Assembly (NCBI RefSeq): GCF_002917105.1
Contig: NZ_PQFZ01000014.1
Span: 1 to 64,000 of the forward strand
Origin: Allobosea psychrotolerans
Lineage (GTDB): Bacteria > Pseudomonadota > Alphaproteobacteria > Rhizobiales > Beijerinckiaceae
Reading direction: 5' to 3'
DNA length: 64,000 nt
Position numbers and translations under genes: made by a program. Below are positions 3,869-24,183 of the stretch, in pieces. How positions within the stretch are numbered: position 1 is the first letter of the stretch; each line of letters opens with the position of its first letter. The notes under the pieces were generated by a model. The model was not told the origin of the DNA and did not search any database. It saw nothing but the letters and a program-made list of their open reading frames with translations.

Positions 3869-3889
3869 GCGCTCCTCCTCTTATTCTCG

Positions 3890-3946: not shown

Positions 3947-3988
3947 GTGATGCAACGAAGCGTGCGACCGCGCACCGTAGCCCTAGGG

Positions 3989-5763: not shown

Positions 5764-5867
5764 TTAGCTTGCCACCGTATCGGCGTCAGCTACGATGCCG
5801 ACGGGAATAAAACGGCGGGCCAACCGCCGCGCTTGATCCAGCTCAGGCCTTCTTGGAGGAACGCCCC

Positions 5868-7043: not shown

Positions 7044-7114
7044 GGCGCAGCCGACCTGGTACCCCTACCCCGGCCGGGGCATAAGCCCCGGCGCCAGCGC
7101 ATCTGCGAGACGCC

Positions 7115-8934: not shown

Positions 8935-9719
8935 GCCTGCTCAGCGTCTCCGATCTCGGCATCAGCTTCGGCGGCGTCGTCGCCGTGGATGGCGTCGGCT
9001 TTTCGGTCTCGCCGGGCGAGGTCTTCTCGATCATCGGTCCCAATGGCGCCGGCAAGACCACCTTGTTCAACCTTGTCACCGGAATCTATCGCCCACAAAG
9101 GGGCGATGTCCGGCTCGCTGGGCAGTCGCTGATCGGGCTCTCCCCGCATCTCCTGGTGCGGCGCGGCATGGCGCGGACCTTCCAGAACCTGCAGATCTTT
9201 TTCCGGATGACGACGATCGAGAACGTCATGGTCGGCCGCCACCTCGCTGAGCGCTCGTCCTTCCTGTCGGACCTTCTCGGCCTGCCCCATGTCGCCAGGC
9301 AGAACCGCCTGACTCGCGACGCGGCCTTCGCTCTGCTCGAGCGTGTCGGCCTTGCCGCCCACGCCGACGCAAATGCCGGCTCGCTGCCCTATGGCGCGCT
9401 CAAGCGCCTGGAGATCGCGCGTGCGCTCGCCGCCGAGCCGAAGGTGCTCCTGCTCGATGAACCGGCGGCCGGCTGCAACGCGATCGAGACCGAGGCGATC
9501 GACGCGCTGATCGTCGAGATCGCCCGGGCGGGCACGGCCGTCGTCCTGATCGAGCATGACATGAAGCTGGTGATGAAGATTTCCGATCGGATCCTGGTTC
9601 TGGCGCAGGGCCGCCCGCTCGCGGAGGGGACGCCGCGCACGATCCGCGACGATCCGGCTGTGATCGCGGCCTATCTCGGCGATCACGGCAGCAGGGAGGC
9701 CGATCGTGCTCACGGTTGA
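8931..9719 (+). CDS. branched-chain-type ABC transporter ATPase, LivG family
   Basis: ATPase of 262 residues. Walker A is GPNGAGKTT, the Q loop is around ARTFQNLQIF and Walker B is VLLLDEPAAG. The C-terminal LivG extension holds ILVLAQGRPLAEGTP. The signature motif reads PYGALKRLEIARAL instead of the usual SYGQQRRLEIARAL, so the LSGGQ position is divergent. It overlaps the LivM gene by four bases and the next ATPase by 14. Confidence 0.92.
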   Translation: MSLLSVSDLGISFGGVVAVDGVGFSVSPGEVFSIIGPNGAGKTTLFNLVTGIYRPQRGDVRLAGQSLIGLSPHLLVRRGMARTFQNLQIFFRMTTIENVMVGRHLAERSSFLSDLLGLPHVARQNRLTRDAAFALLERVGLAAHADANAGSLPYGALKRLEIARALAAEPKVLLLDEPAAGCNAIETEAIDALIVEIARAGTAVVLIEHDMKLVMKISDRILVLAQGRPLAEGTPRTIRDDPAVIAAYLGDHGSREADRAHG

Positions 9720-10407
9720 GGGATTGTCCTCGGCCTACGGCCGGATCGTGGTTTTGCACGAGGTCAGCCTGACCGTGGCGCAGGGCGAGATCGTCGCGCT
9801 CGTCGGCTCGAACGGCGCCGGCAAGACGACGCTGCTGCGGACGATCTCCGGCGTGCAGCCGCTGACGGGAGGGCGCATCCTGCTCAAAGGGCGGCCGATC
9901 GAACGCATGCCCGCTCACGCCCGTGTCGGACTCGGCATCGCGCAGTCGCCCGAGGGGCGGCAGGTCTTCGGCCCGCTCAGCGTCGAGGACAATCTGCGCC
10001 TGGGCGCGTTCCGCAGACAGGATGCCGGCCTCGCTGAGCGGCTGGCACAGGCCTATGCGATGTTCCCGATTCTTTGGGAGAAGCGGGCCATACCGGCAAT
10101 GAGCCTGTCGGGGGGGCAGCAGCAGATGCTCGCGATCGCTCGCGCCCTGATGGCCGCGCCGAAGCTGCTCTTGCTCGACGAGCCGTCTCTGGGCCTCGCC
10201 CCGCTGCTGGTCGACCAGATCCTGAATGCCGTCGTCTCGCTGCGGGATCAGGGGATGACGATCCTCCTCGTCGAGCAGAACGCCTCGGCGGCGCTGGCCA
10301 TCGCCGATCGCGGCTATGTGCTGGAAACCGGCAAAATGGTGCATCAAGGCGCGGCTCAGTCATTGCTGACCGACCCCAGGATGCAGGCTGCCTATCTCGG
10401 GCTTTGA
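9706..10407 (+). CDS. branched-chain-type ABC transporter ATPase, LivF family
   Basis: Second ATPase, 233 residues. Walker A is GSNGAGKTT, the signature LSGGQQQMLAIARAL is canonical and Walker B is LLLLDEPSLGLAP. Translation starts at a GTG (9706) with AGGGAGG about seven bases upstream, inside the end of the LivG gene. It completes a full binding-protein, two-permease, two-ATPase transporter. The gene converges on the pdxA-like gene 61 bases away; no clear terminator is visible between them. Confidence 0.93.
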   Translation: MLTVEGLSSAYGRIVVLHEVSLTVAQGEIVALVGSNGAGKTTLLRTISGVQPLTGGRILLKGRPIERMPAHARVGLGIAQSPEGRQVFGPLSVEDNLRLGAFRRQDAGLAERLAQAYAMFPILWEKRAIPAMSLSGGQQQMLAIARALMAAPKLLLLDEPSLGLAPLLVDQILNAVVSLRDQGMTILLVEQNASAALAIADRGYVLETGKMVHQGAAQSLLTDPRMQAAYLGL

Positions 10408-10467: not shown

Positions 10468-11493
10468 CTAAGGCGTGCTGCCACGGCCCCGCGCCGCGGC
10501 CAGCCGGCCGGCCAGTTCGATGGCAGTCTGGAGCGCGCCTGGCGAGGCTACGCCCTTGCCGACGATATCGAAGGCCGTGCCATGGGCGGGCGTCGTGAAG
10601 ATGATGTCGAGCCCGGCCGTCACCGTGACGCCGCGGTTGAAGCCCTTCAGCTTCGTCGCGATCTGGCCCTGATCGTGATACATCGCAACGACGCTGTCGA
10701 ACTCGCCGCCAAAGGCGCGGATATAGACGGTATCTGCGGGGTAGGGGCCGGTGCAGGCGATGCCAGTCGCCGCGATCCGCTCCACTGTCGGGCGGATCAG
10801 TTCGATCTCGTCGCGGCCGAACAGGCCGTTCTCGCCGGCATGAGGATTGAGCGCGGCAACGGCGATGCGCGGCTTTGCGATGCCGGCGCTTTTCATCATC
10901 CGGTCCACCAGCTCCACCGCATCCGTGATCGCGCGCGCATCGATCAGGTCGAGCGCTTCGCGCAGCGAGACATGGGAGGTCACGCGCGACATCCATTGGC
11001 CGTCGAGCACGTTCATCTCCGAGAAATAGCCCTGGTGCTTGAGTAGATGTGCGAACATCTTGTGCTCGTCGGGAAAGCGCCAGCCGCCTGCGAACATCGC
11101 CGCCTTGTTGAGCGGCGCGAAGGTGATGGCGTCGAGCTTGCCCGCCTGCGCGAGGCCGATCGCATGAGCCAGCGTCTCGCCGGTTATGCGACCGGATTCG
11201 GCTGACATCTCTCCCCGTCCAAGCAAGGCGGGATCGGCATTGCCGAGATCGATCAGCGGAACCTCAGGCGCGTTCCAATCGATCTCGTTGCCCTCAGCGA
11301 CGCTGGTCCAGCGCAATTGCACCCCGGCATCGCGCGCGCCCTGCTCCAGCACGCGCCGGTCGCCGATCGCAACCAGCCGCACATGATCGCGCCAGCCGCC
11401 ATCGGCCAGCACTTTCGCCGCGATCTCGGGGCCGATGCCGGTCGCGTCTCCAAGGAGGAAGCCGAGGCGAGGCTTGTCTTGCATGGCGGCCAT
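10468..11493 (-). CDS. PdxA-family NAD-dependent decarboxylating dehydrogenase
   Basis: Homologue of 4-hydroxythreonine-4-phosphate dehydrogenase, 341 residues, with the family motifs GDATGIGPEI, VTSHV, NPHAGENG, MYHDQGQ and TPAHGTAFDI. The three metal-ligand histidines (in DEHKMF, SHV and YHDQG) are present. The family also contains TphB (terephthalate dihydrodiol dehydrogenase) and D-threonate/4-phospho-D-threonate enzymes. With a catabolic neighbourhood and its own GntR-type operator, a catabolic oxidative decarboxylase is more likely than vitamin B6 synthesis. I use the ATG at 11493 (AGGGGAC upstream), since upstream codons would run through the operator. Confidence 0.82.
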   Translation of the reverse strand: MAAMQDKPRLGFLLGDATGIGPEIAAKVLADGGWRDHVRLVAIGDRRVLEQGARDAGVQLRWTSVAEGNEIDWNAPEVPLIDLGNADPALLGRGEMSAESGRITGETLAHAIGLAQAGKLDAITFAPLNKAAMFAGGWRFPDEHKMFAHLLKHQGYFSEMNVLDGQWMSRVTSHVSLREALDLIDARAITDAVELVDRMMKSAGIAKPRIAVAALNPHAGENGLFGRDEIELIRPTVERIAATGIACTGPYPADTVYIRAFGGEFDSVVAMYHDQGQIATKLKGFNRGVTVTAGLDIIFTTPAHGTAFDIVGKGVASPGALQTAIELAGRLAAARGRGSTP

Positions 11494-11517
11494 GACGTCC
11501 CCTAGATTCAAGATGCT

Positions 11518-11531
11518 TATTGTCGACAATA
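11518..11531. promoter_or_regulatory. GntR-type operator between pdxA-like and dehalogenase-like genes
   Basis: TATTGTCGACAATA is a perfect 14-base palindrome in the 77-base divergent intergenic region. It fits the TTGT-NN-ACAA pattern of FadR/FCD GntR operators and recurs with small changes at 16729, 21652 and 21682. A TATGAT that could serve as the plus-strand -10 overlaps its right edge (11530-11535). Confidence 0.65.
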
Positions 11532-11570
11532 TGATATTCATCGCATGGGATCTGGCGAGGAGCAATGCCG

Positions 11571-12536
11571 ATGATGCTGGAACGATCGGACGGCGGCACG
11601 AGCCGGCCACCTTTATTGCCGCATGGCCCCGTGCTGATGGCGGGCTTCGAGCGGCGCAGGCTGCGCACCCGCGGCGCCGAGATCGAGGTCGCCATCGCCG
11701 GCAGCGGACCGCCGCTGCTGCTGATCCACGGCAACCCGCTCAACCTGGCGAGCTGGCACAAGATCGCGCCCTCTCTGGCGCAGAGCTTCACGGTGATAGC
11801 GACCGACCTGCGCGGCTATGGCGACAGCTCCAAGCCGGAGGGCGGCGGAGACCATTCCGAATACAGCTTCCGCGCCATGGGCGAGGACAATTTCGACGTG
11901 ATGGATGCACTCGGCTTCGAGACCTTCGCAGTCGCGGGACATGACCGGGGCGCACGCGTCGCCTTCCGCATGGCGCTCGACCAGCCGCATCGCGTCACGG
12001 CGCTGGCGGCGCTCGACATCGTGCCGACCCACCATGTCCTGACCCATGTCAGCCTGGGCTGGGGGCTGGAATCCTATCACTGGTTCTTCATGGCGCAGAA
12101 GGCGCCCTTCCCCGAGCGATTGATCTGCGCCGATCTCGACTATTACATCCGCTACAAGCTCAACAAGAAGGGCGTCGGGCTCGAGATCTTCACGCCCGAG
12201 GCGCTGGCCGATTATGCGCGCTGCACGACGCCGGAGCAGATCCACGCGGTCTGCGAGGACTACCGCGCCACGGTGACCCTCGACCTCGCCATGGACACGG
12301 CCGATTACGGCAAGCGCAAGATCGACTGCCCGGTCCTCGTGCTATGGGGCTCGAACAGCCATTGCGGCCGGCATTTCAGGCCGATCGAGGCCTGGAGCGA
12401 ATGGGCAAGCGACCTGCGCGGCTGGGCGATCCCGACCGGGCATTACCCGGCCGAGCACAGGCCCGACCTCGTCTATGCCACCTTCCAGGAGTTCTTCTCC
12501 GGCCAGGAACCCGCGCCCTACAGCGAAGCCGCCTGA
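11571..12536 (+). CDS. fluoroacetate/haloacetate dehalogenase-like alpha/beta hydrolase
   Basis: Alpha/beta hydrolase of 321 residues closest in motif to fluoroacetate dehalogenases. Counting from this start, it has the nucleophile Asp125 in HDRGAR with Arg126 and Arg129 for the carboxylate, the acid Asp149 in LDIVPT, the His170-Trp171 pair in SYHWFF (halide pocket), a Tyr in CEDYRAT and the base His291 in TGHYPAEH. The spacings follow the characterised enzymes closely. An in-frame ATG at 11565 exists, but GAGGAG (11557-11562) is better spaced for 11571. The substrate is unproven; many close relatives do not cleave C-F bonds. Its stop overlaps the rhodanese start. Confidence 0.8.
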   Translation: MMLERSDGGTSRPPLLPHGPVLMAGFERRRLRTRGAEIEVAIAGSGPPLLLIHGNPLNLASWHKIAPSLAQSFTVIATDLRGYGDSSKPEGGGDHSEYSFRAMGEDNFDVMDALGFETFAVAGHDRGARVAFRMALDQPHRVTALAALDIVPTHHVLTHVSLGWGLESYHWFFMAQKAPFPERLICADLDYYIRYKLNKKGVGLEIFTPEALADYARCTTPEQIHAVCEDYRATVTLDLAMDTADYGKRKIDCPVLVLWGSNSHCGRHFRPIEAWSEWASDLRGWAIPTGHYPAEHRPDLVYATFQEFFSGQEPAPYSEAA

Positions 12537-14134
12537 TGGCTGCGATCGATCCGCTTGGGGCAAAACGGCGTCTGCATGCGCCCGGCGAAATCGCCTGTCT
12601 CGATGTGCGCGAACACGGCCAATACGGCGAGGGTCATCCCTTCCTCGCCGTGCCCTGCCCCTATAGCCGGCTTGAGGCCCTGGTTACGGCGCTCGTGCCG
12701 CGCCGTGACGTGCCGATCATCCTGGTCGACGAGGGCGACGGCGTGGCGTCACGCGCCGCGGCGCGTCTGGCCGCGCTGGGCTATGCGGATATCGACTGGA
12801 TCGATGGCGGCGCCCCCGCTTGGGCGGCCGCGGGCTACACCCTGTTTAAGGGCGTGAACGTGCCGAGCAAGACATTGGGTGAGCTGGTCGAGGCGCAGTG
12901 GCACATTCCCGCCATGGGACCGGATGCTCTCGAGGCCTGGCGGAGCGCGCACCGGTCCTTTCAACTGTTCGACGGCCGCCCGGCCGTCGAATTCGCCAAG
13001 ATGACCATTCCCGGATCGCGCTCCATGCCCAATGGCGAGGCGGGTCATCGCTGGGACGCGCTCGCCCTGGAAGCCGGCCCGGTCGTGATCAATTGCGCCG
13101 GGCGCACGCGCAGCATCATCGGGGCCGCAGGCCTTGCGATCCTGCAGCCGGGATTGCCTGTGCTTGCACTGGAGAACGGCACGCAGGGCTGGGCCTTGTC
13201 GGGCCGCGCGCTGGCATATGGCCGGGCCGCCGCGCCCCTGCCGGCTGCGCAAGCCATGGCAAGTCGACAGCGCGCCGATGCCTTCATGGCGGCGCATGGC
13301 CTCCTGCAGGTCGATCGCGCCGAAGCCGAAAGGCTCGCGCGGGAGCCAGACCGGACGACCTATCTCCTCGATGTGCGCGATCCCGCCGAGCATGCGGCCG
13401 CGCCGCGCGCCGCCGCGCCCTCCGCGCCGGGGGGCCAGCTCGTCCAGGCCACGGATCAATGGATCGGCGTGCGCCGCGCCCGCGTGATCCTTGCCGACGA
13501 TACCGGCTTGCGGGCGGCGCTTGCCGCCTTCTGGCTGCGCCAACTCGGCTACGAGACCTATGTGCTCGCCGGCATCGACGAGTGGCCCACCGACTGGCGC
13601 CTGCCCGCCGAGCCCTTTGGGCCGCTGCATCCTGCCGCACTGCCTGAGGTCGCGGCGAGCGAAGCCGCCTCGCGAGCCCGGGATGGCGACCTCCTGCTCG
13701 ATCTGCGCGGCTCGCTCGACTATCGCGCGGGGCATCTGCCCGGCGCGGCATGGTCGATGCGGCCTCGCCTGCCGGCGGTGGCCGGACGCCGCCTCCTGCT
13801 GGCAGGGGAAGCGAATATCACCGCGCTGGCCGCCGTCGACCTGATCGAGGCCGGCGCTGTCTCGGTGCACAGGATCGCGGGCGATGCGCAGGCCTGGCGC
13901 AATGCAGGGCTTGCCCTGGAAACCTCACCGGGCGCCCCCGTCGACGCTGAGGCAATCGACTTCCTGTTCTTCGTGCACGACCGGCATGACGGCAATCTCG
14001 ATGCCGCCCGGCGCTATCTCGCCTGGGAAATGGGCCTCCTCGCCCAGCTCGACGACGCCGAACGCGGCGAGTACCGGCTGGATGCGATCGACCTCAGAGA
14101 CCTCTCTGATTTGAAAGGTGAGCCCTCATCCTGA
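12536..14134 (+). CDS. multidomain rhodanese-like sulfurtransferase
   Basis: A 532-residue protein made of about four rhodanese-like modules. Each shows the CLDVR/LLDVRD/LLDLR strand or a loop of the VVxCxxGxRS type. Only module two keeps an active cysteine (Cys187 in INCAGRTRS). The equivalent loops of the others read VDEGDGVAS, ADDTGLRA and AGEANITA, without cysteine. It starts at the ATG overlapping the hydrolase stop (TGATG), so the two are co-translated. Persulfide transfer within the neighbouring pathway is inferred from the single active site. The last codons and the stop lie inside a palindromic repeat. Confidence 0.82.
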   Translation: MAAIDPLGAKRRLHAPGEIACLDVREHGQYGEGHPFLAVPCPYSRLEALVTALVPRRDVPIILVDEGDGVASRAAARLAALGYADIDWIDGGAPAWAAAGYTLFKGVNVPSKTLGELVEAQWHIPAMGPDALEAWRSAHRSFQLFDGRPAVEFAKMTIPGSRSMPNGEAGHRWDALALEAGPVVINCAGRTRSIIGAAGLAILQPGLPVLALENGTQGWALSGRALAYGRAAAPLPAAQAMASRQRADAFMAAHGLLQVDRAEAERLAREPDRTTYLLDVRDPAEHAAAPRAAAPSAPGGQLVQATDQWIGVRRARVILADDTGLRAALAAFWLRQLGYETYVLAGIDEWPTDWRLPAEPFGPLHPAALPEVAASEAASRARDGDLLLDLRGSLDYRAGHLPGAAWSMRPRLPAVAGRRLLLAGEANITALAAVDLIEAGAVSVHRIAGDAQAWRNAGLALETSPGAPVDAEAIDFLFFVHDRHDGNLDAARRYLAWEMGLLAQLDDAERGEYRLDAIDLRDLSDLKGEPSS

Positions 14135-14169
14135 GGAGCTGCGAAGCAGCGTCTCGAAGGATGAGGGCT
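14121..14169. repeat. CCTCATCCTGAGGAGC-type palindromic repeat, probable bidirectional terminator
   Basis: Perfect 12-base arms AGCCCTCATCCT (14121-14132) and AGGATGAGGGCT (14158-14169) flank an inner hairpin with GCTGC/GCAGC arms. I recognise the type as a dispersed intergenic repeat of Hyphomicrobiales genomes (from memory, not checked). It lies between the convergent rhodanese and dehydrogenase genes, where it could end both transcripts, and it supplies the stop codon of the rhodanese gene. Confidence 0.75.
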
Positions 14170-14194
14170 CGGGAGATTTCCAAACAGAAGCCTC

Positions 14195-15268
14195 TCAGCC
14201 GATTGCGCTGACGATCGCCTCGGTCATGGCCCGCGTACCGGCCGTACCGCGGATGTCGCGCGTGCGCGTCTGCGGTGAGGCCAGCGCCTTGTCGATCGCG
14301 CGCTGCATCGTTCGCGCGGCGTCCAGCGCCTGCGGGAGCGTCCTGGCGCGGCCGAGATGCTCGATCAGCATCCGCGCCGATTCGATCATCGCATAGGGGT
14401 TGGCGATGTCCTTGCCGGCGATGTCGGGGGCCGAGCCATGCGTCGCCTGCGCCATGGCCAGCCCACCCTCCCCGATACAGAGACCTGGCGCCATGCCGAG
14501 CCCGCCGACGAGCCCTGCAGCTTCGTCGGTCAAGATGTCGCCGAACATGTTCGTCGTCACCACAGTATCGAAGCTCTGCGGATCACGGATCAGGCGCATG
14601 GCGAAGGTATCGACGATCACCTCGTCGACCGTAACGTCGGGATAATCCTTCGCCACCTCGTAGCAGCTCTCCACGAACATGCCGCAGCCGAGCTTGAACA
14701 CGGTGTTCTTGTGCACGAGCGTCAGGCGCTTCTTGCGCGAGCGGGCAATATCGAGGGCGGCGCGCGCGACCTTGCGGCTGCCCTTGCGCGAGATGACGCG
14801 CACCGAGATCGTCAGGTCGTCATTGGGCCTGAACTCGCCGGAGCCCATCACCACATTGCGGTCCGGTTGGAAGCCCTCATTGTTCTCGCGCACGATGACG
14901 AGGTCGATATCGTCATAGATGCAGCCGATGCCGGGATAGGAGCGCGTCGGGCGGACATTGGCGAACAGGTCGAAATGCTTGCGCAGGATCGGATGCGGAT
15001 TGATCGCGCCCGGCCCCTTCGGATAGGCCTGATGGCCGATCGGGCCGAGAATGAAGCCGTCGAAGGTCGCGAGCGTCTCCAATGTGCCCTCGGGCATCGT
15101 GGTGCCGTGGCTGTCGAGCGCGGCGCGGCCGATGGGCATCGGCCGCCAGTCGATCTCCAGCCCATGCCGGGCAGCGGCAGCCTGCACCACCGCCACAGCC
15201 GCCGGCACGATCTCGTGGCCGATATCGTCCCCGTCGAGGGCGCCGATGACGAGCTGAGCCATGGTCAC
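14195..15268 (-). CDS. isocitrate/isopropylmalate dehydrogenase-family enzyme
   Basis: NAD(P)-dependent beta-decarboxylating dehydrogenase of 357 residues. It has a GDDIGHEIV start, the substrate arginine region NVRPTRSYPG, VRENNEGFQPDRN, the catalytic lysine in HKNTVFKLG, metal ligands in TTNMFGDILTDEA and the NAD-loop GSAPDIAGK. The VRENNEGFQ loop differs from leuB (VRELTGGIY) and from D-malate or tartrate enzymes (VRENTEGEY), so the substrate is unknown. The GTG at 15268 overlaps the upstream MmgE stop as GTGA; an ATG at 15262 is the alternative. It is co-transcribed with the MmgE/PrpD gene. Confidence 0.88.
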   Translation of the reverse strand: MTMAQLVIGALDGDDIGHEIVPAAVAVVQAAAARHGLEIDWRPMPIGRAALDSHGTTMPEGTLETLATFDGFILGPIGHQAYPKGPGAINPHPILRKHFDLFANVRPTRSYPGIGCIYDDIDLVIVRENNEGFQPDRNVVMGSGEFRPNDDLTISVRVISRKGSRKVARAALDIARSRKKRLTLVHKNTVFKLGCGMFVESCYEVAKDYPDVTVDEVIVDTFAMRLIRDPQSFDTVVTTNMFGDILTDEAAGLVGGLGMAPGLCIGEGGLAMAQATHGSAPDIAGKDIANPYAMIESARMLIEHLGRARTLPQALDAARTMQRAIDKALASPQTRTRDIRGTAGTRAMTEAIVSAIG

Positions 15269-16683
15269 AGCCGCAAGGGCGCCATCAGGCGCTCGATCGA
15301 GGGCAGCGTCTCCAGATCGCGCACCAGGGCGATCACGTCTTCGATCCGCTCCGGCGCAAGCTTGGCGAAGCCTGCGGTCTCGCGGAACTTGTAGGAGACG
15401 TCCTCATAGCTCATCGGGTTGGTCGGGCTGCCCTTGCCGAAATCGGCCCGGCCCGAGATCGTCCGGCCGTCCTTCAGCGTGATGGCGATCAGGGTCGTCA
15501 TCTTGTCGTAGCCGGCGGCCTCCGCCTCCTCGTCGACGACGAAGTCGATGCGCTCGATCATCGCCTTGACGTCGGGGCGGTTGACCACCTCGTCGGTGAA
15601 CTCGGCAAGGCCGGCTTTGCCCTCGATCAGCAGGGCCGCCATGCAGAACTCCATCGAGAACTTGGCCTGGAGCTCGTTGGTCGGGCGGTGGTGGATCAGG
15701 GCATTGGGCATGTTGTGGTTGGTGCCGACGCGGACCCGCTCGACGTCGCCGGCCGTGATCCTGTTCTCGCGGATGAGGCGCAGCATTTCGGTCATGCCGG
15801 GATGGGTGAGCGAGCCCGACGGATGCGGCTTGATCGAGATACCTGGCGTCGCAAAGGTCCAGGGCGCGCCAAGCTGATTCAGGATCGCAGCCTCGTCATA
15901 GCCGCCGCCGGCGGCACGGAAGAAACCACGCGGCGCCTCCAGAATCTTGTCCGTGGCGCTCCAGCCATATTCGGCGAACTGGGCCGCCGCGACGCCGCTC
16001 TCCGACGAGCGCCCGGCATGGAAGGGCTTTGTCATCGTGCCGAAATTCTCGCGCAGGCCAGCCGACTGGCTGCCGGCGATGGAGAGCGCGCGCAGGGTCT
16101 GGTCGAGGTTGAGCCCCATCAGCTTGGCGCTGGCGGCGGCGGCCGCGAAGGTGCCGCAGGTGGCGGTGGCGTGGAAGCCGGTCTGGTAGTGGCGCGGGTT
16201 GATCGCCTCGGCGATCTTGCACTCCACCTCGACGCCGAGATGATAGGCGAGCATCACCTCGCGCCCGCTGGCACCCTTCGCCTCGCCCATCGCAAGCGCT
16301 GCCGGCAGCGCGGGCGCGGTCGGATGAGTGAGCAGTCCGTAAACCCGGTCCTTGGCCACTGCGAGCTGGGTGTCGTCATAATCATCCGCATGAATGCCGA
16401 CGCCGTTGGCGAAGGCGGCGAAACGCGGCGCGACCTTCAGTTTCGAGCCGATCACGGTGGCCGGCCCTTCCCCGAGATTCAGATCCAGCAAATGCCGGCG
16501 GACATAGTCGCCGCTATGAGCAACCGAGCCCGACAGCGCCAGCCCGAGCCCGTCGAGGATCGATTTCTTGCCGAGCGCCACGACATCACCGGGCAAATCC
16601 GCCGGTGAGGCCTCGCAGATGAAGCGCGCGACATAGCGCGTCAGGCCGTTATCCGAAGGCGAAAGATTATCGGGCGTCTTCAT
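15265..16683 (-). CDS. MmgE/PrpD family protein (copy 1)
   Basis: A 472-residue member of the fold shared by 2-methylcitrate dehydratase, cis-aconitate decarboxylase and iminodisuccinate epimerase. The family signature DDYDDTQ (100-106), His120 in THPTAP, Lys219 in GTMTKPFHAG and Lys285 in ISIKPHPSG are all present, so it should be active on a di- or tricarboxylate-like substrate. It is the first gene of a two-gene minus-strand operon with the dehydrogenase, divergent from a GntR regulator. A second family member lies at 22415-23845 beside a paralogous regulator. Confidence 0.9.
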   Translation of the reverse strand: MKTPDNLSPSDNGLTRYVARFICEASPADLPGDVVALGKKSILDGLGLALSGSVAHSGDYVRRHLLDLNLGEGPATVIGSKLKVAPRFAAFANGVGIHADDYDDTQLAVAKDRVYGLLTHPTAPALPAALAMGEAKGASGREVMLAYHLGVEVECKIAEAINPRHYQTGFHATATCGTFAAAAASAKLMGLNLDQTLRALSIAGSQSAGLRENFGTMTKPFHAGRSSESGVAAAQFAEYGWSATDKILEAPRGFFRAAGGGYDEAAILNQLGAPWTFATPGISIKPHPSGSLTHPGMTEMLRLIRENRITAGDVERVRVGTNHNMPNALIHHRPTNELQAKFSMEFCMAALLIEGKAGLAEFTDEVVNRPDVKAMIERIDFVVDEEAEAAGYDKMTTLIAITLKDGRTISGRADFGKGSPTNPMSYEDVSYKFRETAGFAKLAPERIEDVIALVRDLETLPSIERLMAPLRL

Positions 16684-16728
16684 GGCGTCCTCCAGGATCG
16701 GTCATCAGCGTCTAATTGTCTTTTGCCG

Positions 16729-16740
16729 ATTGTCAACAGT
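16729..16740. promoter_or_regulatory. GntR-type operator between mmgE copy 1 and its GntR gene
   Basis: ATTGTCAACAGT matches the ATTGT-NN-ACAAT palindrome with one change, and an ATTGTC half-site lies 14 bases away at 16715-16720. On the minus strand the site contains TTGACA facing the mmgE gene, so it would overlap a -35 element. It is the second of four related sites in 11.5-21.7 kb. Confidence 0.55.
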
Positions 16741-16819
16741 TTAAGATTCGATGGCATCCCGCAACTGCGGCTGATAGATTGCGGCAACCGCACGGAACCC
16801 TTTGCAGGAACCCCATGGC

Positions 16820-17506
16820 ATGAGTCTCGATATCGATTCCGCCCTCCAGCTTCGCCGCAACCAGTCGCTGACCTCGATCATCCGCCGTGAGCTGGAGCAG
16901 ATGATCGAGCGGGGCGAACTGAGTGCCGGCGAGCGGCTCAACGAGAATGCGCTGGCCGCCAAGCTGGGGGTCAGCCGGGGGCCGATCCGCGAGGCCTGTC
17001 GCGGGCTGGAGCAGAGCGGGCTGGTGAATGTCGTCGTCAACCGCGGCGTGTTCATCCGCGCACTCGATGGGCGCGAGGCGGCAGAACTCTACGAGATCCG
17101 GGCGGCACTCTATGGCCTGGCTGGCCGGCTGCTGGCACCCATCGTCACCGACCAGCAGGTCGCCATCCTCACCGGTTATGTCGAGGAGATGGACGCCGCC
17201 ATGGCGGCCGGCGACCTGAACAGCTTCTATCCCGGCAATTTGCGCTTTCACGAGGCCATCGTCGAATTCGGCGGCAATATGCGCCTGGCGGCCGAATGCG
17301 CCGCGATCCACCGCGAGATGCATCTGCTGCGCCGCCGCACCCTCGACATGCCGGGCCGGATGGCGACCTCCAATGACGAGCACCGCGCCATCCTCGAACG
17401 CATCGCTGCACGCGACCCCGCTGGGGCCGAAGCTGCGCTGGAGGAACATGTCCTGATCAGCCGCAACGCGCTGTTTGGCCCGCTCGGTCATTATCCCGAC
17501 GCCTGA
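16820..17506 (+). CDS. GntR-family regulator with FCD domain (copy 1)
   Basis: A 228-residue regulator. The winged helix is at 20-90 (LSAGERLNENALAAKLGVS, then RGPIREACRGLEQSGLVNVV). The C-terminal FCD domain has the expected metal-site pattern, including LRFHEAIVEFGGN and NDEHRAILERIAARD. I use the ATG at 16820, 10 bases after AGGA, over an in-frame TTG at 16802. It is a clear paralogue of the regulator at 21738-22403, sharing ISRGPIREA-like recognition helices. It is divergent from mmgE copy 1. Its TGA touches the convergent permease stop (TGATCA). Confidence 0.9.
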   Translation: MSLDIDSALQLRRNQSLTSIIRRELEQMIERGELSAGERLNENALAAKLGVSRGPIREACRGLEQSGLVNVVVNRGVFIRALDGREAAELYEIRAALYGLAGRLLAPIVTDQQVAILTGYVEEMDAAMAAGDLNSFYPGNLRFHEAIVEFGGNMRLAAECAAIHREMHLLRRRTLDMPGRMATSNDEHRAILERIAARDPAGAEAALEEHVLISRNALFGPLGHYPDA

Positions 17507-19237
17507 TCAGCCACGAACCGGCCCAACTCTCATGCCCCCGAGAAGCGGCAGGCGATTGGCGAGGAACACGACGGCGAACGAGACCATCAGCAGCATGATC
17601 CCAAGCACGGAGATCGCGCCGAGATCACCGGATTCGTTCAGGTCGTAGATGATGACCGAGACGAGCTTGGTGTCCGCCGTCGTCAGCAGGATCGTGGCGG
17701 AGAGTTCGCGGATCGTGCCGATGAAGACGAAGCACCAGGCCGCCACGACATTGGAGCGCAGCAGCGGCGCGGTGATGGTGCGCAGCGTCGTCATCCGCGT
17801 CGCACCCAGAATGCGCCCCGCCTCCTCCAGCTCGACATGCACGCTTTTGAAGGCCGAGGAGAGCTGCTGGTAGCCTGCCGGCATCTCGATGGTCAGGAAG
17901 GCGATCAGCAGGATCCAGAGCGTGCCGTAAAGCGGCAGGATCGGGCTGGAATAGCTGAGGAAGAGGCCGACACCGAGCACGATGCCGGGAATCGCGATCG
18001 GCGCGGTCGCGAGGTAGCCGAGATAGGGCGCTGCCCGCGAGGTGCCGCGCGTGACGAGATAGGCCACGACGAGCGCGATCGCCGTGCCGATGGTCGCGGT
18101 GAGAAAGCCGAGCAGGAAGGTGTTGCGCAGCGCCAGCTGCGTCGCGGAAAACTCGAAGAACACGAACCAGATATGATGGAGCGTGAAGCTCTCCAAGGTA
18201 AGCGGTTCGGCCACTGTGCGGGTGAGCGCAGTCTTCACCAGCGCTGCATAGGGCATCAGAACCGTCAGCGAGAGGATGAGGACGGTGAAGCCGAGCGCCA
18301 GCCATTTCCAGCGCCCGAGCACGGTGATGCGCACGCTCCCGCTCTTGCCGCCGAGTGTGGTGTAGCCGCGCCGGCCGAGGATGCGCCGCTGCGTCCACAG
18401 CAACAGGATGGTGACGAGAAGCAGCGGCAGCGCGGCCGCGGCGGCAAGCCCTGGCTTGGGCGGATATTGGAACAGGCTCCAGATCTTGGTGGTGATGACA
18501 TGGAAGTTCGCCGGCAGCGCCAGGATGGCCGGCGAGCCGAACATCGTCAGTGCCTGCAAGATCGCGATGAGCGAGCCGGCGAGCATGGCGGGCAGCACGA
18601 GCGGGATCGTCACCTTGCGCAAGGTCGGCCAAAGGCCGCCGCCGAGGATGGCGGAGGCCTCCTCCAGCTCGGTCGGCACACGTTCGAACGCGTTCGTCAC
18701 CAATGTGAAGACATAGGGAAACGTGTAGCAGGAGATGGCGAAGACCAGCCCCGAGAGCGTGTAGATGTCGACGAGGTACTCGTAAGGGTCGAGGCCGAAC
18801 AGCCAGCGATAGACGGCGTTGATGATGCCGCTATTGGGCGCGGCGAGAATCTCCCAGGCGATGGCGCCGAGGAAGGGCGGCGTCACGAAGGACGCCATGA
18901 CGAGCCCGCGCACCACGGTGCGGCCCGGCATGTCGGTGCGCGCCACGATCCAGGCAAGCGGGACCGCGATGACGCAGGACATCGCCCCGACGCTCAGCGA
19001 CATGGTGATGGCGACGATGAAAGGCCGGCGCAACGTCGCATCGGTGACCAGCGCCCTGAAATTGGCGAGGCTCAGGCTGCCCGTCTGATCCGTCACCGCA
19101 TAATAGCCGAGCCAGCCGAGCGGCAGCACCACCAGCACCGCCAGGATCACCGTGAGCAGCACGAAGATCGGTCGCGACCAGTCGAAAGTGATGCGGCGCG
19201 TGGGAATCCCGGCGTCGATCCCGGTTATCGCAGTCAT
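17507..19237 (-). CDS. Fbp/Afu-type ABC transporter permease (fused)
   Basis: A 576-residue permease made of two fused six-helix halves. Each half has an EAA coupling loop: ELEEASAILGGGLWPTLRKV in the first and ELEEAGRILGATRMTTLRTI in the second. This is the FbpB/AfuB architecture, used for ferric ions and also for phosphonates, thiamine-like compounds and organic acids. It is the last gene of an ATPase-binding protein-permease operon, 114 bases beyond the binding-protein gene. The neighbouring dehydratase and dehydrogenase genes suggest a carboxylate substrate rather than iron. Confidence 0.9.
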   Translation of the reverse strand: MTAITGIDAGIPTRRITFDWSRPIFVLLTVILAVLVVLPLGWLGYYAVTDQTGSLSLANFRALVTDATLRRPFIVAITMSLSVGAMSCVIAVPLAWIVARTDMPGRTVVRGLVMASFVTPPFLGAIAWEILAAPNSGIINAVYRWLFGLDPYEYLVDIYTLSGLVFAISCYTFPYVFTLVTNAFERVPTELEEASAILGGGLWPTLRKVTIPLVLPAMLAGSLIAILQALTMFGSPAILALPANFHVITTKIWSLFQYPPKPGLAAAAALPLLLVTILLLWTQRRILGRRGYTTLGGKSGSVRITVLGRWKWLALGFTVLILSLTVLMPYAALVKTALTRTVAEPLTLESFTLHHIWFVFFEFSATQLALRNTFLLGFLTATIGTAIALVVAYLVTRGTSRAAPYLGYLATAPIAIPGIVLGVGLFLSYSSPILPLYGTLWILLIAFLTIEMPAGYQQLSSAFKSVHVELEEAGRILGATRMTTLRTITAPLLRSNVVAAWCFVFIGTIRELSATILLTTADTKLVSVIIYDLNESGDLGAISVLGIMLLMVSFAVVFLANRLPLLGGMRVGPVRG

Positions 19238-19351
19238 GCGGATCTCCGTACGCAGCCAGCACGCGACGCGAAAATGCAGAGTGCTGATGTCGTCATAAGG
19301 CGAAGCGACGGCGCGGAACGCCCGCGCCGCGGAAGGACGGCCTCGACCGGA

Positions 19352-20413
19352 TCAGGTGCCGAAATACTCTTCGTATTTCTTCTTGATCATCTCGATATTG
19401 GGCTCGAGCTTGACCGGGTCGGAATAGAGCAGCTTGATCTTGGAGAGCGGCGTGCGCGTCTCCTTCTCCTTGACGCGCGGGTGGAAGGAGCGCAGCCCGC
19501 CAGAATCGCTGTTGAGCTGCTGCGTCTCCTGATCGAACAGGAAGGAGTAGAACAGCTTCGCGGCATTGGGATGCGGCGCGTTCTTGAGCAGGCCGCCATG
19601 GCCGATGGCGATTGGCGTGCCCTCCGTCGCATAGACGATCTCGACGGGAACGCCGCTCTCCTTCAGCATGAACATGTTGTATTCGTTGCCGTCAGCCTCG
19701 ATGGAGCGCTCGCCCTGGGCCAGTTTCTTCGGCGGCTCGGTCGATGACTGCACCTGCATGATGCGCTGCTTGCCGAGCTTCTCGAAAAAGTCCCAGCCGA
19801 GCGCCTGGCTCAGCACGTCGGTCCCGGTCATCACCGTGCCGGAATAGCCGGGATGGGCTTTTACGATGCGGCCGCGCCATTTCGGATTGAGCAGATCGGC
19901 GTGGCTCTTGGGCGCCTCCTCGGCCTTCACCTGTTTGGTGTTGTAGCCGATGACCGAGAGATGCGCGCGATAGGCGGCGTAGTAGCCGTCCGGATCTTTG
20001 GCCTCCTTCGGCCAATCCTTGGCGACCTCTGCCGGCACGGCCTGAGCCAGCCAGCCATTGCGCTTGAACAGCACGAAGTGCACCGCATCCGAGGTTTCCA
20101 CCACATCGGCGTTGTAGATCGAGCTGCCGTACTCCTGGCTGAGGCGCTGGAACACGCGTTCCGAGCCTGAGCGCTCGACCTTGACCTTGATGCCGGGATA
20201 TTTCGCCTCGAAGGCGCTGCCGACCCGCTCGGCAACCACGACATCGGTGGCGGTATAGAAGGTGACGGTGCCTTCCTTCCTCGCCGCCTCGATGAGCTCC
20301 GGCGTGACGTCATAGGGTGCGGGGGCCTGCGCAAAGGCGGGCAGGCCGCCCAGAGCCGTGGAGAGAAGAAGGCCGGCCATCACGGAGCGTCTGTCGAACG
20401 TTGGGCGTTTCAT
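19352..20413 (-). CDS. extracellular solute-binding protein, FbpA/AfuA family
   Basis: A 353-residue periplasmic binding protein (SBP family 1). The signal peptide ends at LPAFAQAPA. The mature part has TPELIEAARKEGTVTFYTAT, VERSGSERVFQRLSQEY and LNPKWRGRIVKAHPGYSGT, typical of the AfuA/FbpA group. The ATG at 20413 has GGGAGGA 7 bases upstream. It lies between the ATPase and permease genes on the minus strand. The tyrosine pair of true ferric-binding proteins cannot be assigned with confidence, so the ligand is left open. Confidence 0.9.
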   Translation of the reverse strand: MKRPTFDRRSVMAGLLLSTALGGLPAFAQAPAPYDVTPELIEAARKEGTVTFYTATDVVVAERVGSAFEAKYPGIKVKVERSGSERVFQRLSQEYGSSIYNADVVETSDAVHFVLFKRNGWLAQAVPAEVAKDWPKEAKDPDGYYAAYRAHLSVIGYNTKQVKAEEAPKSHADLLNPKWRGRIVKAHPGYSGTVMTGTDVLSQALGWDFFEKLGKQRIMQVQSSTEPPKKLAQGERSIEADGNEYNMFMLKESGVPVEIVYATEGTPIAIGHGGLLKNAPHPNAAKLFYSFLFDQETQQLNSDSGGLRSFHPRVKEKETRTPLSKIKLLYSDPVKLEPNIEMIKKKYEEYFGT

Positions 20414-20465
20414 TTTCGTTCCTCCCGATTGTTATGGTTGGCTAAAACGGCCTTTGGGCCCCTGT

Positions 20466-21527
20466 TCAGCGAGCCAGGGCGCGGCAATACTCCTGCGGGA
20501 AGTGCAGCCAGACGGGCTGGCCGCGATCGATGGACAGATGAGGTTCGGCCACCGTGCGAATCTGCGCACCGCCGGGAAGCTCGATCAGGTAGTCGCGATG
20601 CGAGCCGAGATAGACCTGGCGCAGGACCGTGCCCTGCGTCCGGTTGGGGCCGTCGCCCTGGGGCTTGGAGTCCAACACGATGTCGTGGTGGCGCACCGAG
20701 ACGACGCCGTCCCCGCCGGCGGAGAAATCGCCGGCACCGCAACGCAGTTTCAGCGGACCGCATTCCACCGTATCGGCATCGAGCCAGCGGCCCTTCAGGA
20801 TATTGGTGCCGCCAAGGAAGCGCGCGACGAATTCTGACTGCGGCCGCTCGTAGATATCCTCGGGACTCCCGGCCTGCTCGATGCGACCCTGGTTCATCAC
20901 GACGATCAGATCGGCCGTCGTCATGGCCTCGGCCTGATCATGCGTCACATAGACCGTGGTATAGCGAAAGGCATCGTGCAGGCGGCGGATCTCGAAGCGC
21001 ATCTCCTCGCGCAGATTGGCGTCGAGATTGGAGAGCGGCTCGTCCAGCAGCAGGATCTCGGGCTCGACGACGAGCGCGCGGGCCAGTGAGACGCGTTGCT
21101 GCTGCCCGCCCGAAAGCTCTCCGGGATAGCGCTCGGCAAGCGCCTTCAACCGCGTGACGTCGAGAATCTTGTCGACGAGCCGGGCAATCTCGGCGGCCGA
21201 CATCTTCCGGAGCATCAGGCCGTAGCCGATATTCTCGCGAACAGTCATGTGCGGCCAGAGCGCATAGCTCTGGAAGATCATCGACATGCCCCGCCGCTCC
21301 GGAGGCTCGCTCCACCCGGCCGACGAGATCGTGCGGCCGCCGACGTGAATTTCACCGCCCTTTGGTGTGATGAAGCCGGCGATCAGTCGCAGCGTCGTCG
21401 TCTTGCCGCAGCCCGATGGCCCGAGCAGGCAGACGAGATCGCCCTTCTCGACTTTGAGGTCGACGCGATCGACCACGGTCAGCGCGCCATAGCGCATGGT
21501 GAGGTCGGCCAGCTCCAGAAACGCCAA
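20466..21527 (-). CDS. ABC transporter ATPase, PotA/FbpC type
   Basis: A 353-residue ATPase. Walker A is GPSGCGKTT, the signature LSGGQQQRVSLARAL is canonical and Walker B is ILLLDEPLSNLDA. A C-terminal TOBE-like domain covers GDGVVSVRHHDIVL onward. I choose the TTG at 21527 as start: it gives the usual N-terminus (LAFLELADLTMRYG) and has GGGAGGA five bases upstream. No ATG in frame would do so. It is the first gene of the ATPase, binding protein, permease operon and is divergent from the second GntR gene, with two operator copies between them. Confidence 0.9.
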   Translation of the reverse strand: MAFLELADLTMRYGALTVVDRVDLKVEKGDLVCLLGPSGCGKTTTLRLIAGFITPKGGEIHVGGRTISSAGWSEPPERRGMSMIFQSYALWPHMTVRENIGYGLMLRKMSAAEIARLVDKILDVTRLKALAERYPGELSGGQQQRVSLARALVVEPEILLLDEPLSNLDANLREEMRFEIRRLHDAFRYTTVYVTHDQAEAMTTADLIVVMNQGRIEQAGSPEDIYERPQSEFVARFLGGTNILKGRWLDADTVECGPLKLRCGAGDFSAGGDGVVSVRHHDIVLDSKPQGDGPNRTQGTVLRQVYLGSHRDYLIELPGGAQIRTVAEPHLSIDRGQPVWLHFPQEYCRALAR

Positions 21528-21651
21528 TGCATCCTCCCAGACGCCGTTTCGTCGCAAGATCAGCTCGGGCGTTGCGCATCCTCCGGCATTGCGCCGGGCT
21601 ACGTCCGCCTCTGTGTGAGCTATCGATCTAAGGCTACGAACCTCCGGTTAG

Positions 21652-21693
21652 ATTGTCAACAATAAGCATTTCATTTTGCAGATTGTTGACATT
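21652..21693. promoter_or_regulatory. tandem GntR-type operators with divergent -35 elements
   Basis: ATTGTCAACAAT (21652-21663) and ATTGTTGACATT (21682-21693) are two copies of the ATTGT-NN-ACAAT palindrome with centres 30 bases apart, about three helical turns. Each contains a TTGACA: the first on the minus strand facing the ABC operon, the second on the plus strand facing the GntR gene. One regulator could therefore cover both divergent -35 regions. No convincing -10 partner follows either hexamer, so the exact promoters remain uncertain. Confidence 0.65.
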
Positions 21694-21737
21694 CTTCAGA
21701 TGACATTTTACCGACGATTGTAGAGGAAGGAAAGCCA

Positions 21738-22403
21738 ATGCTCGCCCAAGCCATCGAGCTGTTGAGGGATCGCTCCCTGCCGATGCTGATCGAGCAGGAG
21801 ATCGAGCGCGTGATCTTGGGCGGCGAATACGCACCCGGCGACAAGATCAACGAGCAGGCGCTGGCTCTGCGTTTCGGCATCAGCCGCGGCCCCATTCGCG
21901 AGGCTCTGCGCTCGCTCGACCGCACCGGCCTGATCGACACCATTCCCAACCGCGGCGTCTTCGTGCGGCGGCTCACGGCCGCGCAAGCCGCCGATATCTA
22001 CGACGTACGCGCCGCGCTTTTCGCCCTCGCCGGGCAATGTCTCGCCATCCGGGCCAGTGAAGCGGATGTCGAGCGCCTGCGCAGCCATGTCGCGGCCATG
22101 GACGAGGCCGTCGCGCGCGACGATTTCGAGACCTACATCACCGAGAATTTCGCGTTGCACGAAGCGATCGTCACCCGCGCCGGCAACGCCACGCTCGCCG
22201 CGCATTATCTCGCGCTCGTCAAGCAGTTGCGGCTCTATCGCACCCGCAACCTGATGCTGGCGGATTCCGTGCACGCCTCCAACGAAGAGCATCGCGAGAT
22301 GGTGGAAGCCATCGCAGCGCGCGACCCCGCCCGCGCCTATGCCGCACACTTCAACCACGTGGCCACGGCCAAGACACGCCTGATGGCGAACCATCTGACT
22401 TGA
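21738..22403 (+). CDS. GntR-family regulator with FCD domain (copy 2)
   Basis: A 221-residue regulator. It has an N-terminal winged helix (YAPGDKINEQALALRFGIS, then RGPIREALRSLDRTGLIDTI) and an FCD ligand domain with ENFALHEAIVTRAGN and NEEHREMVEAIAARDPARAY. AGGAAGGA lies 8 bases before the ATG. It is paralogous to the regulator at 16820-17506 across the whole length. It sits divergent from the Fbp-type transporter operon and directly upstream of mmgE copy 2, which starts 12 bases after its stop. Confidence 0.92.
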   Translation: MLAQAIELLRDRSLPMLIEQEIERVILGGEYAPGDKINEQALALRFGISRGPIREALRSLDRTGLIDTIPNRGVFVRRLTAAQAADIYDVRAALFALAGQCLAIRASEADVERLRSHVAAMDEAVARDDFETYITENFALHEAIVTRAGNATLAAHYLALVKQLRLYRTRNLMLADSVHASNEEHREMVEAIAARDPARAYAAHFNHVATAKTRLMANHLT

Positions 22404-22414
22404 GAGGAACTCCC

Positions 22415-23845
22415 GTGAGCGCAGCCGCCAGCAACATCACCCGCCAAGCTCTCCGCTTCGTCGAGACCACCAGCTATGCCGACCTCCCGGACGAGGCTCT
22501 GCGGATCGGACGACGCTGCATCGTCGATGCGCTCGGCCTCTATCTCGCGGGCAGTCGCGAGCATTCGGTCCAGATCCTCATCGCTGACGCCCTCGAACAA
22601 GGCGGGCGGGCCGATGCGCCACTGCCGGCAGCCGGCGCTCGCCGCGTGCCGGCGGCGCTCGCAGCCCGTGTCTGGGGCACCGCCGGCCATGCGCATGACT
22701 GGGACGACACACAGGTCTCGCATGATCCCGCCCATATCTACGGGCTGCTCACGCATCCGACCGTACCGCCGCTGACGGCGGCGCTGGTCACGGCGGAGCG
22801 GATGGGCATCCGCGACGGCAAGGCGGTGATGCTGGCCTTCCAGCTCGGCTTCGAGGTCGAGTGCAAGATCTCGGAGTGGATGACGCCACGGCACTACCGG
22901 CGCGGCCATCACACAAGCGGCACGGTCGGAACATTCGGTGCCTGCGTCGCCGCCGCCCATCTCATGGGCCTGTCGGGAGACCGGCTCGCCCATGCGCTGG
23001 GAATGGCAGCGAGTTTCGCTGCCGGCATCCGCTGCAATTTCGGCACGATGACCAAACCGCTGCATGTCGGACGCGCCTGCGAGAATGGCGTCACCGCCGC
23101 GCTCCTCGCCGCCCGAGGCTTCGACGCCGACCCTGCGGCGCTGGACGGGCCCTGGGGCTTTTTCTCGGTGATGGGCGAAGGTTTCGACGCGCAGAAGGCC
23201 AAAGAAGGCTTCGGTCGGCCGCTCACCATCGAGAACCCGGGAATCTCGATCAAGCCCTACCCGTCCGGGATCCTGACGCATCAATCCATGGATGCGATGC
23301 TGAAGCTCGTCCTCGATCACGACCTGAAACCGGAGCAGGTGGAGCGCGTGCGCTTTTTCGCCGGCAAGAACATCATCGAGCCGATCCGCTATCCGATCGC
23401 CAGGAACCATCTGCAGGCCAAATTCTCCATGCCGGCGCTGCTGGCGATGATCGTGCTCTGCCGGCGCGCCAGCCATCACGAGTTCGAAGACGCCTTCGTG
23501 GCCGGAGAGGCGATGCAGGACCTGCAGGCGCGCACCGATGTGATCAACGATCCCGAGATCGACGCCAGGGGCTACGACCTCATCCGCTCGCGCATAGAGG
23601 TCGAGACAAAAGACGGGCGCATCCTCGTGCAATGGGCCGACGAGCGCTATCGCGGCGGCCCGCTGAATCCGATCAGCGACGCCGATCTCGATGGCAAGTT
23701 CCGCATGTGCGCCGAGGGCGTGCTCGACAGCGCAGCGCAGGACGAGATCCTGGCGCTGGCCCGGAGCTTCGATACCGGCGCCGATCTGTCGCGCCTGATG
23801 GCCTTGATGACCGGGACCGCACAGCCCGTCTATTCGGCGGCCTGA
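22415..23845 (+). CDS. MmgE/PrpD family protein (copy 2)
   Basis: A 476-residue paralogue of the protein at 15265-16683, with the full active-site set: HAHDWDDTQ (92-100), His114 in THPTVP, Lys214 in GTMTKPLHVG and Lys280 in ISIKPYPSG. The GTG at 22415 follows AGAGGAA and gives the family N-terminus; an upstream in-frame TTG (22400) overlaps the regulator gene and is less likely. It is co-transcribed with the GntR regulator. Two MmgE enzymes under two paralogous regulators suggest two successive or stereo-specific steps on related acids. Confidence 0.88.
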   Translation: MSAAASNITRQALRFVETTSYADLPDEALRIGRRCIVDALGLYLAGSREHSVQILIADALEQGGRADAPLPAAGARRVPAALAARVWGTAGHAHDWDDTQVSHDPAHIYGLLTHPTVPPLTAALVTAERMGIRDGKAVMLAFQLGFEVECKISEWMTPRHYRRGHHTSGTVGTFGACVAAAHLMGLSGDRLAHALGMAASFAAGIRCNFGTMTKPLHVGRACENGVTAALLAARGFDADPAALDGPWGFFSVMGEGFDAQKAKEGFGRPLTIENPGISIKPYPSGILTHQSMDAMLKLVLDHDLKPEQVERVRFFAGKNIIEPIRYPIARNHLQAKFSMPALLAMIVLCRRASHHEFEDAFVAGEAMQDLQARTDVINDPEIDARGYDLIRSRIEVETKDGRILVQWADERYRGGPLNPISDADLDGKFRMCAEGVLDSAAQDEILALARSFDTGADLSRLMALMTGTAQPVYSAA

Positions 23846-23869: not shown

Positions 23870-24183
23870 GCCGCATCGCACGCATTGCCGGCGCGGCCCC
23901 GAAAATCAGCCGCTCCATCGCGCTCGCACTGGGGCGAGCGCCCCCCGTTGTCGTCGCCACAAGTTCGCTCCGTCAGCGTTTGACCGTGGGGCTCGCGCTT
24001 GGCAACCGCAATGTCGGCCTGGTCTGGTCGGCGCTGGGCACTGGCGCGGCCCCGTCGATCTCGCTGTTCTTTGCCGCAACCCAATTGCCGATCTATCTGC
24101 TGCTGTTGCTGATCGAATGGATCGTCCGTGTCCGCAGAAGCAGCCTCGCCAAGGAGACACAGCATGCCGACAGAACCCCGTGA
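23870..24183 (+). pseudogene. 3' remnant of a BASS-type (bile acid:Na+ symporter family) transporter
   Basis: An open frame with no start of its own holds RQRLTVGLALGNRNVGLVWS (from 23971), then SLFFAATQLPIYLLLLLIEW and a basic end. This looks like the last transmembrane helices of a BASS-family permease, in which a GNRN-type motif precedes the final helices. No amino-terminal part is present, because mmgE copy 2 ends at 23845. I read it as the tail of a deleted gene; the upstream boundary is approximate. It accounts for most of the 318-base interval between mmgE and the DUF2891 gene. Confidence 0.45.

Follow-up and report, generated by a model that had tools for sequence, protein, structure and literature searches.

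The window analysed here is a 64,000-nucleotide stretch of contig NZ_PQFZ01000014.1 from the genome of Allobosea psychrotolerans (6.39 Mb, 57 contigs), and the genes at positions 10468 to 23845 of it form a regulon that is real as a conserved arrangement. It is conserved but patchy in its distribution, and rather likely serves the catabolism of a polycarboxylate, either citrate-like or of the C2/C3-substituted succinate type. All gene families listed in an earlier reading of the window's letters (the original prediction) were recovered: Pfam gave a PdxA protein, an alpha/beta hydrolase, a rhodanese, an isocitrate/isopropylmalate-type dehydrogenase (Iso_dh), two MmgE_PrpD proteins, two GntR + FCD regulators, a permease, a solute-binding protein (SBP) and an ABC ATPase. 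The two GntR proteins are paralogues as predicted (94 of 228 alignment columns identical), and so are the two MmgE proteins (192 of 468 columns). The parts of the regulon are of known kinds, but their combination is not among the known ones as far as the open-licence PubMed Central literature reaches, where no description of it was found.

A co-occurrence test independent of MmgE1 neighbourhoods was made in 297 genomes of the order. The mmgE1 gene was present in 7 of these genomes (E <=1e-150). The hydrolase gene was present in the same 7 and in genome G353 (8 in total, 1e-110), and Iso_dh in the same 7 and in G180 at 57% (8 in total, 1e-120), while the rhodanese gene was found in 18 genomes (1e-90), namely 6 of the 7 mmgE1 genomes and 12 others. 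This co-occurrence, a check proposed with the original prediction, means that MmgE1, the Iso_dh enzyme and the hydrolase are a functional unit and that the rhodanese is a looser partner. In a family-level sample mmgE1 was found in only 4 of 149 genomes, so the distribution is patchy, and a plasmid search gave MmgE1 relatives in 3 of 72,556 records.

When named genomes were scanned with the MmgE1 alignment, which holds two MmgE1 peptides, 386 encoding stretches were obtained and 80 were kept. The hosts of the latter are alpha-, beta- and gammaproteobacteria, including Hyphomicrobiales, Rhodobacteraceae, Burkholderiales (Ramlibacter) and gammaproteobacteria (Salinicola), and the nearest named MmgE1 is from Bosea sp. 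OK403 (98% identity), in line with the Bosea-like look of the window genome. A common environmental acid is therefore probably consumed by this route, for which databases have no more than broad or borrowed names; among 120 entries listed out of 4247 Iso_dh relatives, the names given are 3-isopropylmalate dehydrogenase, isocitrate/isopropylmalate dehydrogenase family, or leuB. Together with three further genomes, 83 loci were examined, of which 19 were shorter than 18 kb; their family counts rest on gene calls made in this analysis, with names taken from one representative per family. Conserved synteny, on which the original prediction had been made to depend beforehand, was borne out in that the same families recur in the 83 loci in shuffled order. 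MmgE1 was present in 83 by construction, the Iso_dh family in 67 (orthologues at >=65% in 60), GntR in 65, PdxA in 57, the hydrolase in 50, the ABC ATPase and permease in 48 each and the SBP in 47. Further recurrent families were a short-chain dehydrogenase/reductase (SDR) in 43, TctA in 40, a second MmgE (MMGb) in 37, an AbrB-type membrane protein and the rhodanese in 34 each, TctC in 24, TctB in 23, a third MmgE (MMGc) in 19, a second TctC in 16, a CHR transporter in 15, an enolase-superfamily dehydratase in 12 and an MmgE2-like protein in 9. In all 30 loci holding both, the hydrolase and rhodanese genes lie next to each other on one strand, with no more than 238 bases between them. The genes and putative operator sites of the region are as follows.

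10468..11493, minus strand: PdxA-like decarboxylating dehydrogenase (Pfam PdxA, 291.7 bits; probable start 11493)
11519..11530, unstranded: exact operator-like palindrome in the pdxA/facD intergenic region (motif search)
11634..12536, plus strand: facD, fluoroacetate-dehalogenase-like alpha/beta hydrolase (Pfam and solved-structure matches; start 11634 or 11565)
12533..14134, plus strand: multi-domain rhodanese-type sulfurtransferase (Pfam; closest solved structure 1yt8, E 3e-87)
14195..15268, minus strand: isocitrate/isopropylmalate-type dehydrogenase (Iso_dh) of a distinct subfamily (Pfam, NCBIfam, solved-structure comparison)
15265..16683, minus strand: MmgE1, MmgE/PrpD family, predicted two-base epimerase (Pfam, structure match, residue alignment)
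16729..16740, unstranded: operator-like site with one mismatch; a minus-strand TTGACA faces mmgE1 (motif search)
16820..17506, plus strand: GntR-FCD regulator 1, GntR1 (Pfam, pairwise alignment)
17507..19237, minus strand: ABC permease, fused, PhnU2-like (Pfam, NCBIfam)
19352..20413, minus strand: SBP (Pfam; nearest solved fold the metal-citrate binder MctA)
20466..21557, minus strand: ABC ATPase, PhnT2-like (Pfam, NCBIfam)
21652..21663, unstranded: exact operator-like palindrome; minus-strand TTGACA-17 bp-TAGCCT toward the transporter (motif search)
21682..21693, unstranded: operator-like site with one mismatch; a plus-strand TTGACA faces gntR2-mmgE2 (motif search)
21738..22403, plus strand: GntR-FCD regulator 2, GntR2 (Pfam, pairwise alignment)
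22400..23845, plus strand: MmgE2, MmgE/PrpD family, predicted two-base epimerase (Pfam, residue alignment)

The palindrome ATTGT-NN-ACAAT had been reported at 11519, 16729, 21652 and 21682; it is exact at 11519 and 21652 and carries one mismatch at the other two places. With one mismatch allowed, each of the three divergent intergenic regions holds one or two sites, as had been claimed. Rarity of the motif had also been set beforehand as a test, and the exact form proved to be confined to this region, with two places in the whole genome (2 observed in the window against 0.01 expected by chance). With at most one mismatch it occurs at 50 places in the genome, four of them inside 10.2 kb here (Poisson P ~1.6e-6 for a stretch picked after the sites were seen). 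The window has two further one-mismatch copies, at 3920 and 45256, the former ahead of the paa genes and upstream of a minus-strand PaaA/PaaC-family gene whose start is at 3868. Outside the window there are 44 such places, of which 19, in 17 stretches (L008-L024), were examined; the site lay solely inside a called gene in 7 of the 17 and was intergenic in most others. The sole module-like layout among them is on contig 21 of the same genome (L015), where the site separates a distant GntR gene (35%) from an operon that encodes a distant ABC ATPase (45%).

The transporter promoter at 21652 reads TTGACA, 17 bases, TAGCCT. Weaker promoter fits were found at 16729 (16 bases, TAGACG) and 21682 (17 bases, TACCGA), and the 11519 site has no TTGACA, which makes it probable that the putative operator covers the -35 box at three of the four sites. 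Both GntR1 and GntR2 have the GntR and FCD domains of the FadR/FCD group, together with His residues that we take to be the effector site. Each of the paired sites at 21652 and 21682 points towards a gene of its own, an arrangement that PMC4494728 describes for GntR sites, and the palindrome is of the GT-NN-AC type with two bases between GT and AC, as in GntR FadR/FCD regulons (PMC4494728). The difference from such regulons is the present gene content, which was not found described in open-licence PubMed Central papers.

In the 83 related loci the exact palindrome was found 71 times between genes and twice within genes, and 40 of the loci carry it; the 19 other palindromes with the same arm letters gave at most one match each. 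Its places are upstream of mmgE1 and of the transporter genes and next to the hydrolase gene, where it often falls in the hydrolase/pdxA intergenic region, and mostly it forms part of the -35 box: 68 intergenic copies of TTGTTGACAA show TTGACA, then 17 bases, then a TA...T signal. A 17-base extended form of the motif occurs in 16 of the 297 genomes of the order and is absent from the window genome. Ten of the 16 belong to one genus (L149-L158) and have the motif at one place per genome; none of the module families matched in the 3 kb examined around these sites, and the motif there is perhaps another GntR-FCD target.

The original prediction called the transporter Fbp-type, which holds in so far as the SBP is in the ferric-binding fold family, but the transporter is nearest to the putative aminoethylphosphonate PhnS2/T2/U2 models and is not a proven ferric type. 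The scores to these equivalogs were under the cut-offs (85.1/392.75, 348.4/457.7 and 175.3/593.25). More generally, an NCBIfam scan of 10 of the 11 module proteins (all but MmgE2) gave listed matches, for the permease the best 25 of 31 and for the ATPase the best 25 of 187, that were all under the curated cut-offs, and thus no specific NCBIfam name could be transferred. It is therefore hardly credible that the region is an uptake locus for aminoethylphosphonate or ferric ion whose neighbours are unrelated: both GntR proteins match TIGR03338 in addition to the Phn and ferric-fold likenesses, but the TIGR03338 matches too are under the cut-off, no phosphonate enzyme was recognised in the region, and in 24 loci a TctC-type tricarboxylate transporter replaces the ABC importer. 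A ferric uptake role, considered separately, found no support beyond the fold family of the SBP. The part of the original prediction that concerns import and degradation of a polycarboxylate fared better, because the TctC-type replacement, the MctA-like SBP fold and the His/Tyr pair of the MmgE proteins make a polycarboxylate the probable substrate.

The best solved sequence match of MmgE1 is iminodisuccinate (IDS) epimerase (E 6e-53). The epimerase-type His and Tyr are present in 84 of 84 MmgE1, 10 of 10 MmgE2 and 37 of 37 MMGb sequences, whereas in MMGc the Tyr is replaced by His in 18 of 19 (a gap in the remaining row). The conserved His/Lys carboxylate ligands are kept at every scored position in MmgE1 (84/84) and MmgE2 (10/10), with Asp where the Pseudomonas isomerase has Glu91. 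Known MmgE/PrpD substrates have a common 1,4-dicarboxylate backbone and the epimerases of the family use His and Tyr as two bases, according to PMC12290011. MmgE1 and MmgE2 thus share bases and ligands with IDS epimerase and (S)-(R)-methylsuccinate isomerase (same source), and both are predicted from these residues to be two-base epimerases. However, MmgE1 is distant from these enzymes in sequence, and the itaconate-type CoA genes of the methylsuccinate isomerase cluster were not recognised in the present region. MmgE1 did not reach the cut-offs for 2-methylcitrate dehydratase PrpD either (25.4 vs 458 for TIGR02330, and 33.6 vs 950).

In the PdxA-like protein, three His that presumably form the metal site are kept in 59 of 59 aligned sequences, and its score to the TIGR00557 equivalog (259.8) was under the cut-off of 290.35. 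In 58 of the 59 it has D-E-H where solved PdxA proteins have G-H-T, which we take to be the phosphate-binding motif, and this hints at a substrate other than a phosphate ester. Similarly, the Iso_dh enzyme reached none of the equivalog cut-offs (LeuB 233.5 vs 353.2; TTC 237.5 vs 470.4; mito_nad_idh 225.4 vs 432.4). It keeps the catalytic Lys187 in 61 of 61 sequences, and also in 61 of 61 it has RENNEGFQPDR at the place where solved relatives have a Tyr, presumably the usual catalytic residue. This Tyr is kept in 56 of 56 tartrate-dehydrogenase-like Iso_dh paralogues of the relatives.

The latter second paralogue (438.5 bits to TIGR02089, cut-off 470.4) is one reason to take seriously an ordinary regulon for a natural tricarboxylate or hydroxy-dicarboxylate, such as isocitrate, hydroxycitrate, tartrate or malate stereoisomers, with the hydrolase and rhodanese in side roles. 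The MctA-like binding protein and the aconitase-type and methylisocitrate-lyase-like genes of some Burkholderiales loci also fit this explanation, which we regard as quite possible, though short of likely. It leaves unexplained why the hydrolase accompanies mmgE1 in 7 of 7 genomes and why hydrolase promoters bear the operator. The pairing of MmgE with Iso_dh, and the same Burkholderiales genes, recall methylcitrate and tartrate/isocitrate catabolism; the differences are that the PrpD score of MmgE1 is far under the cut-off, that no citrate synthase was recognised here and that the acid appears to be imported. All four Burkholderiales variants (L072, L084, L087 and L090; genes identified from scanned representatives) encode a TauD-type dioxygenase, an enolase-superfamily dehydratase and a protein like the aconitase small subunit. 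A gene like that of the aconitase large subunit occurs in L072, L087 and L090, while L072, L084 and L087 have one that is methylisocitrate-lyase-like. These added genes would suit a sulfur-bearing acid as well as an ordinary tricarboxylate.

The original prediction also supposed that the acid might be halogenated or sulfur-bearing. The best solved matches of the hydrolase are Alr0039 (3qyj) and fluoroacetate dehalogenases, and seven catalytic-motif residues of the fluoroacetate-dehalogenase type, whose roles we take to be those in that catalysis, are kept in 51 of 51 sequences (the halide-pocket Tyr is outside the scored set). These residues, and the occurrence of rhodanese relatives near mercaptosuccinate-dioxygenase-like genes, suggest such a substituent, and a sulfur or halogen group on the substrate is plausible. 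A regulon in which the hydrolase strips halide from a halo-succinate or halo-citrate, MmgE sets the stereochemistry and the dehydrogenases finish the degradation would account for both the seven residues and the constant company of hydrolase and mmgE1. It is nevertheless improbable: this hydrolase family also has members with different or unknown substrates, none of the recurrent families scanned was recognisable as a fluoride exporter, and halogenated polycarboxylates are, to our knowledge, rare in nature.

Sulfur was considered through the rhodanese, in which Pfam marks two domains and which, from its length and the 1yt8 match, we read as a four-domain protein; its CAGRTR is conserved in 35 of 35 sequences. 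Rhodanese neighbourhoods were examined in 11 of the 12 genomes that carry this gene but lack an mmgE1 orthologue (in G180, the Iso_dh contig only), and 8 of these 11 have a gene for a thiol-dioxygenase-like cupin no further than about 2 kb from it. One type (P0004; L132, L137, L140) matches mercaptosuccinate dioxygenase 8vni at E 1.1e-57. The other (P0001; L131, L133, L134, L135, L136) has about 170 residues and is distantly similar to that enzyme (E 4.2e-5); its four scanned members (L131, L133, L134, L135) are without a Pfam match. The genomes without a nearby cupin are G108, G396 and G353, the last with a partial module, in which one contig carries the genes for MMGc, SDR, TctA, dehydratase and rhodanese and another that for the hydrolase. 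Published mercaptosuccinate and 3-mercaptopropionate dioxygenase loci agree with this: msdo is reported to be clustered with a rhodanese gene (PMC5373536) and 3mdo-tst to be an apparent transcription unit (PMC12947264). The rhodaneses of these published loci may be of the family of the present one, which is the family found near the dioxygenase-like genes in the 8 genomes.

A sulfur-bearing dicarboxylate regulon akin to mercaptosuccinate use, in which a hydrolase or dehydrogenase step would free sulfur, the rhodanese would take it and malate- or succinate-type products would remain, draws on these cupins and published clusters, and on CHR-family transporters in 15 of 83 loci and one TauE-family protein in L005. 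We hold it to be unlikely. Loci L001-L104, a set that contains the 83 module loci, gave no match to cupins P0001-P0004 at E 1e-4, so that the dioxygenase gene of a mercaptosuccinate-degradation locus was not found there, and P0001 had no match in the window genome. In the module loci it is the hydrolase gene that stands beside the rhodanese gene. Furthermore, the rhodanese was not found in 49 of 83 loci, and a sulfite oxidase was not recognised in any of the recurrent families scanned. A desulfinase was tried and rejected: the acyl-CoA dehydrogenase whose gene adjoins that of the hydrolase in L139 most resembles ordinary acyl-CoA dehydrogenases, and 5af7, which we take to be a desulfinase, comes far down the list. 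A more specific proposal, which we consider very improbable, is that the Asp hydrolase of fluoroacetate-dehalogenase type replaces the thiol dioxygenase in a widespread pathway for a sulfur-substituted succinate- or citrate-type acid; hydrolytic C-S cleavage next to the carboxylate would pass a sulfur product to the multi-domain rhodanese, and the MmgE epimerases and the Tyr-less Iso_dh would recycle the carbon skeleton.

Under the favoured polycarboxylate regulon, and by analogy with family behaviour, a GntR-FCD protein would occupy ATTGT-NN-ACAAT without substrate, blocking RNA polymerase at the -35 box (TTGACA) of most sites, and would come off once a carboxylate ligand is bound. The acid would be imported by the binding-protein-dependent importer, or by the TctC-type tripartite transporter in many relatives, and MmgE1 and MmgE2 would shift its C2 proton via their His/Tyr bases, turning one isomer into another. 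The Iso_dh-type and PdxA-type enzymes would then oxidise the hydroxyl adjacent to a carboxylate with release of CO2, and the products would enter central metabolism. In the weakest step, the hydrolase and multi-domain rhodanese, encoded in one transcription unit, might remove or capture a sulfur or halogen hetero-substituent on part of the substrate pool. Two findings speak against this scheme. The usual catalytic Tyr is absent from the Iso_dh enzyme, a loss that could mean a different product-forming step, and 14 of the 16 genomes with the 17-base motif have no mmgE1 orthologue (2 hold mmgE1), which means that the motif by itself is not enough to define the regulon. With the putative operator, the two regulators, the importer and the enzymes all mapped, the substrate can be searched for directly by binding and growth screens, and naming it would also assign functions to MmgE proteins; the homologues found in PMC12290011 are, according to that paper, mostly uncharacterised.

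Two neighbouring elements were tried as module parts and rejected. Of the four closest loci (L025-L028), L025 alone has the liv (branched-chain-amino-acid-type) ABC transporter of 5853-10407 next to the cluster, and the DUF2891 gene (24128-25210) has no operator match upstream and no relative among the 83 loci. Phenylacetate (paa) genes with a PaaX regulator lie at 121-4858, and a third GntR-FCD regulator, at 31595-32380, adjoins a class III aminotransferase gene.

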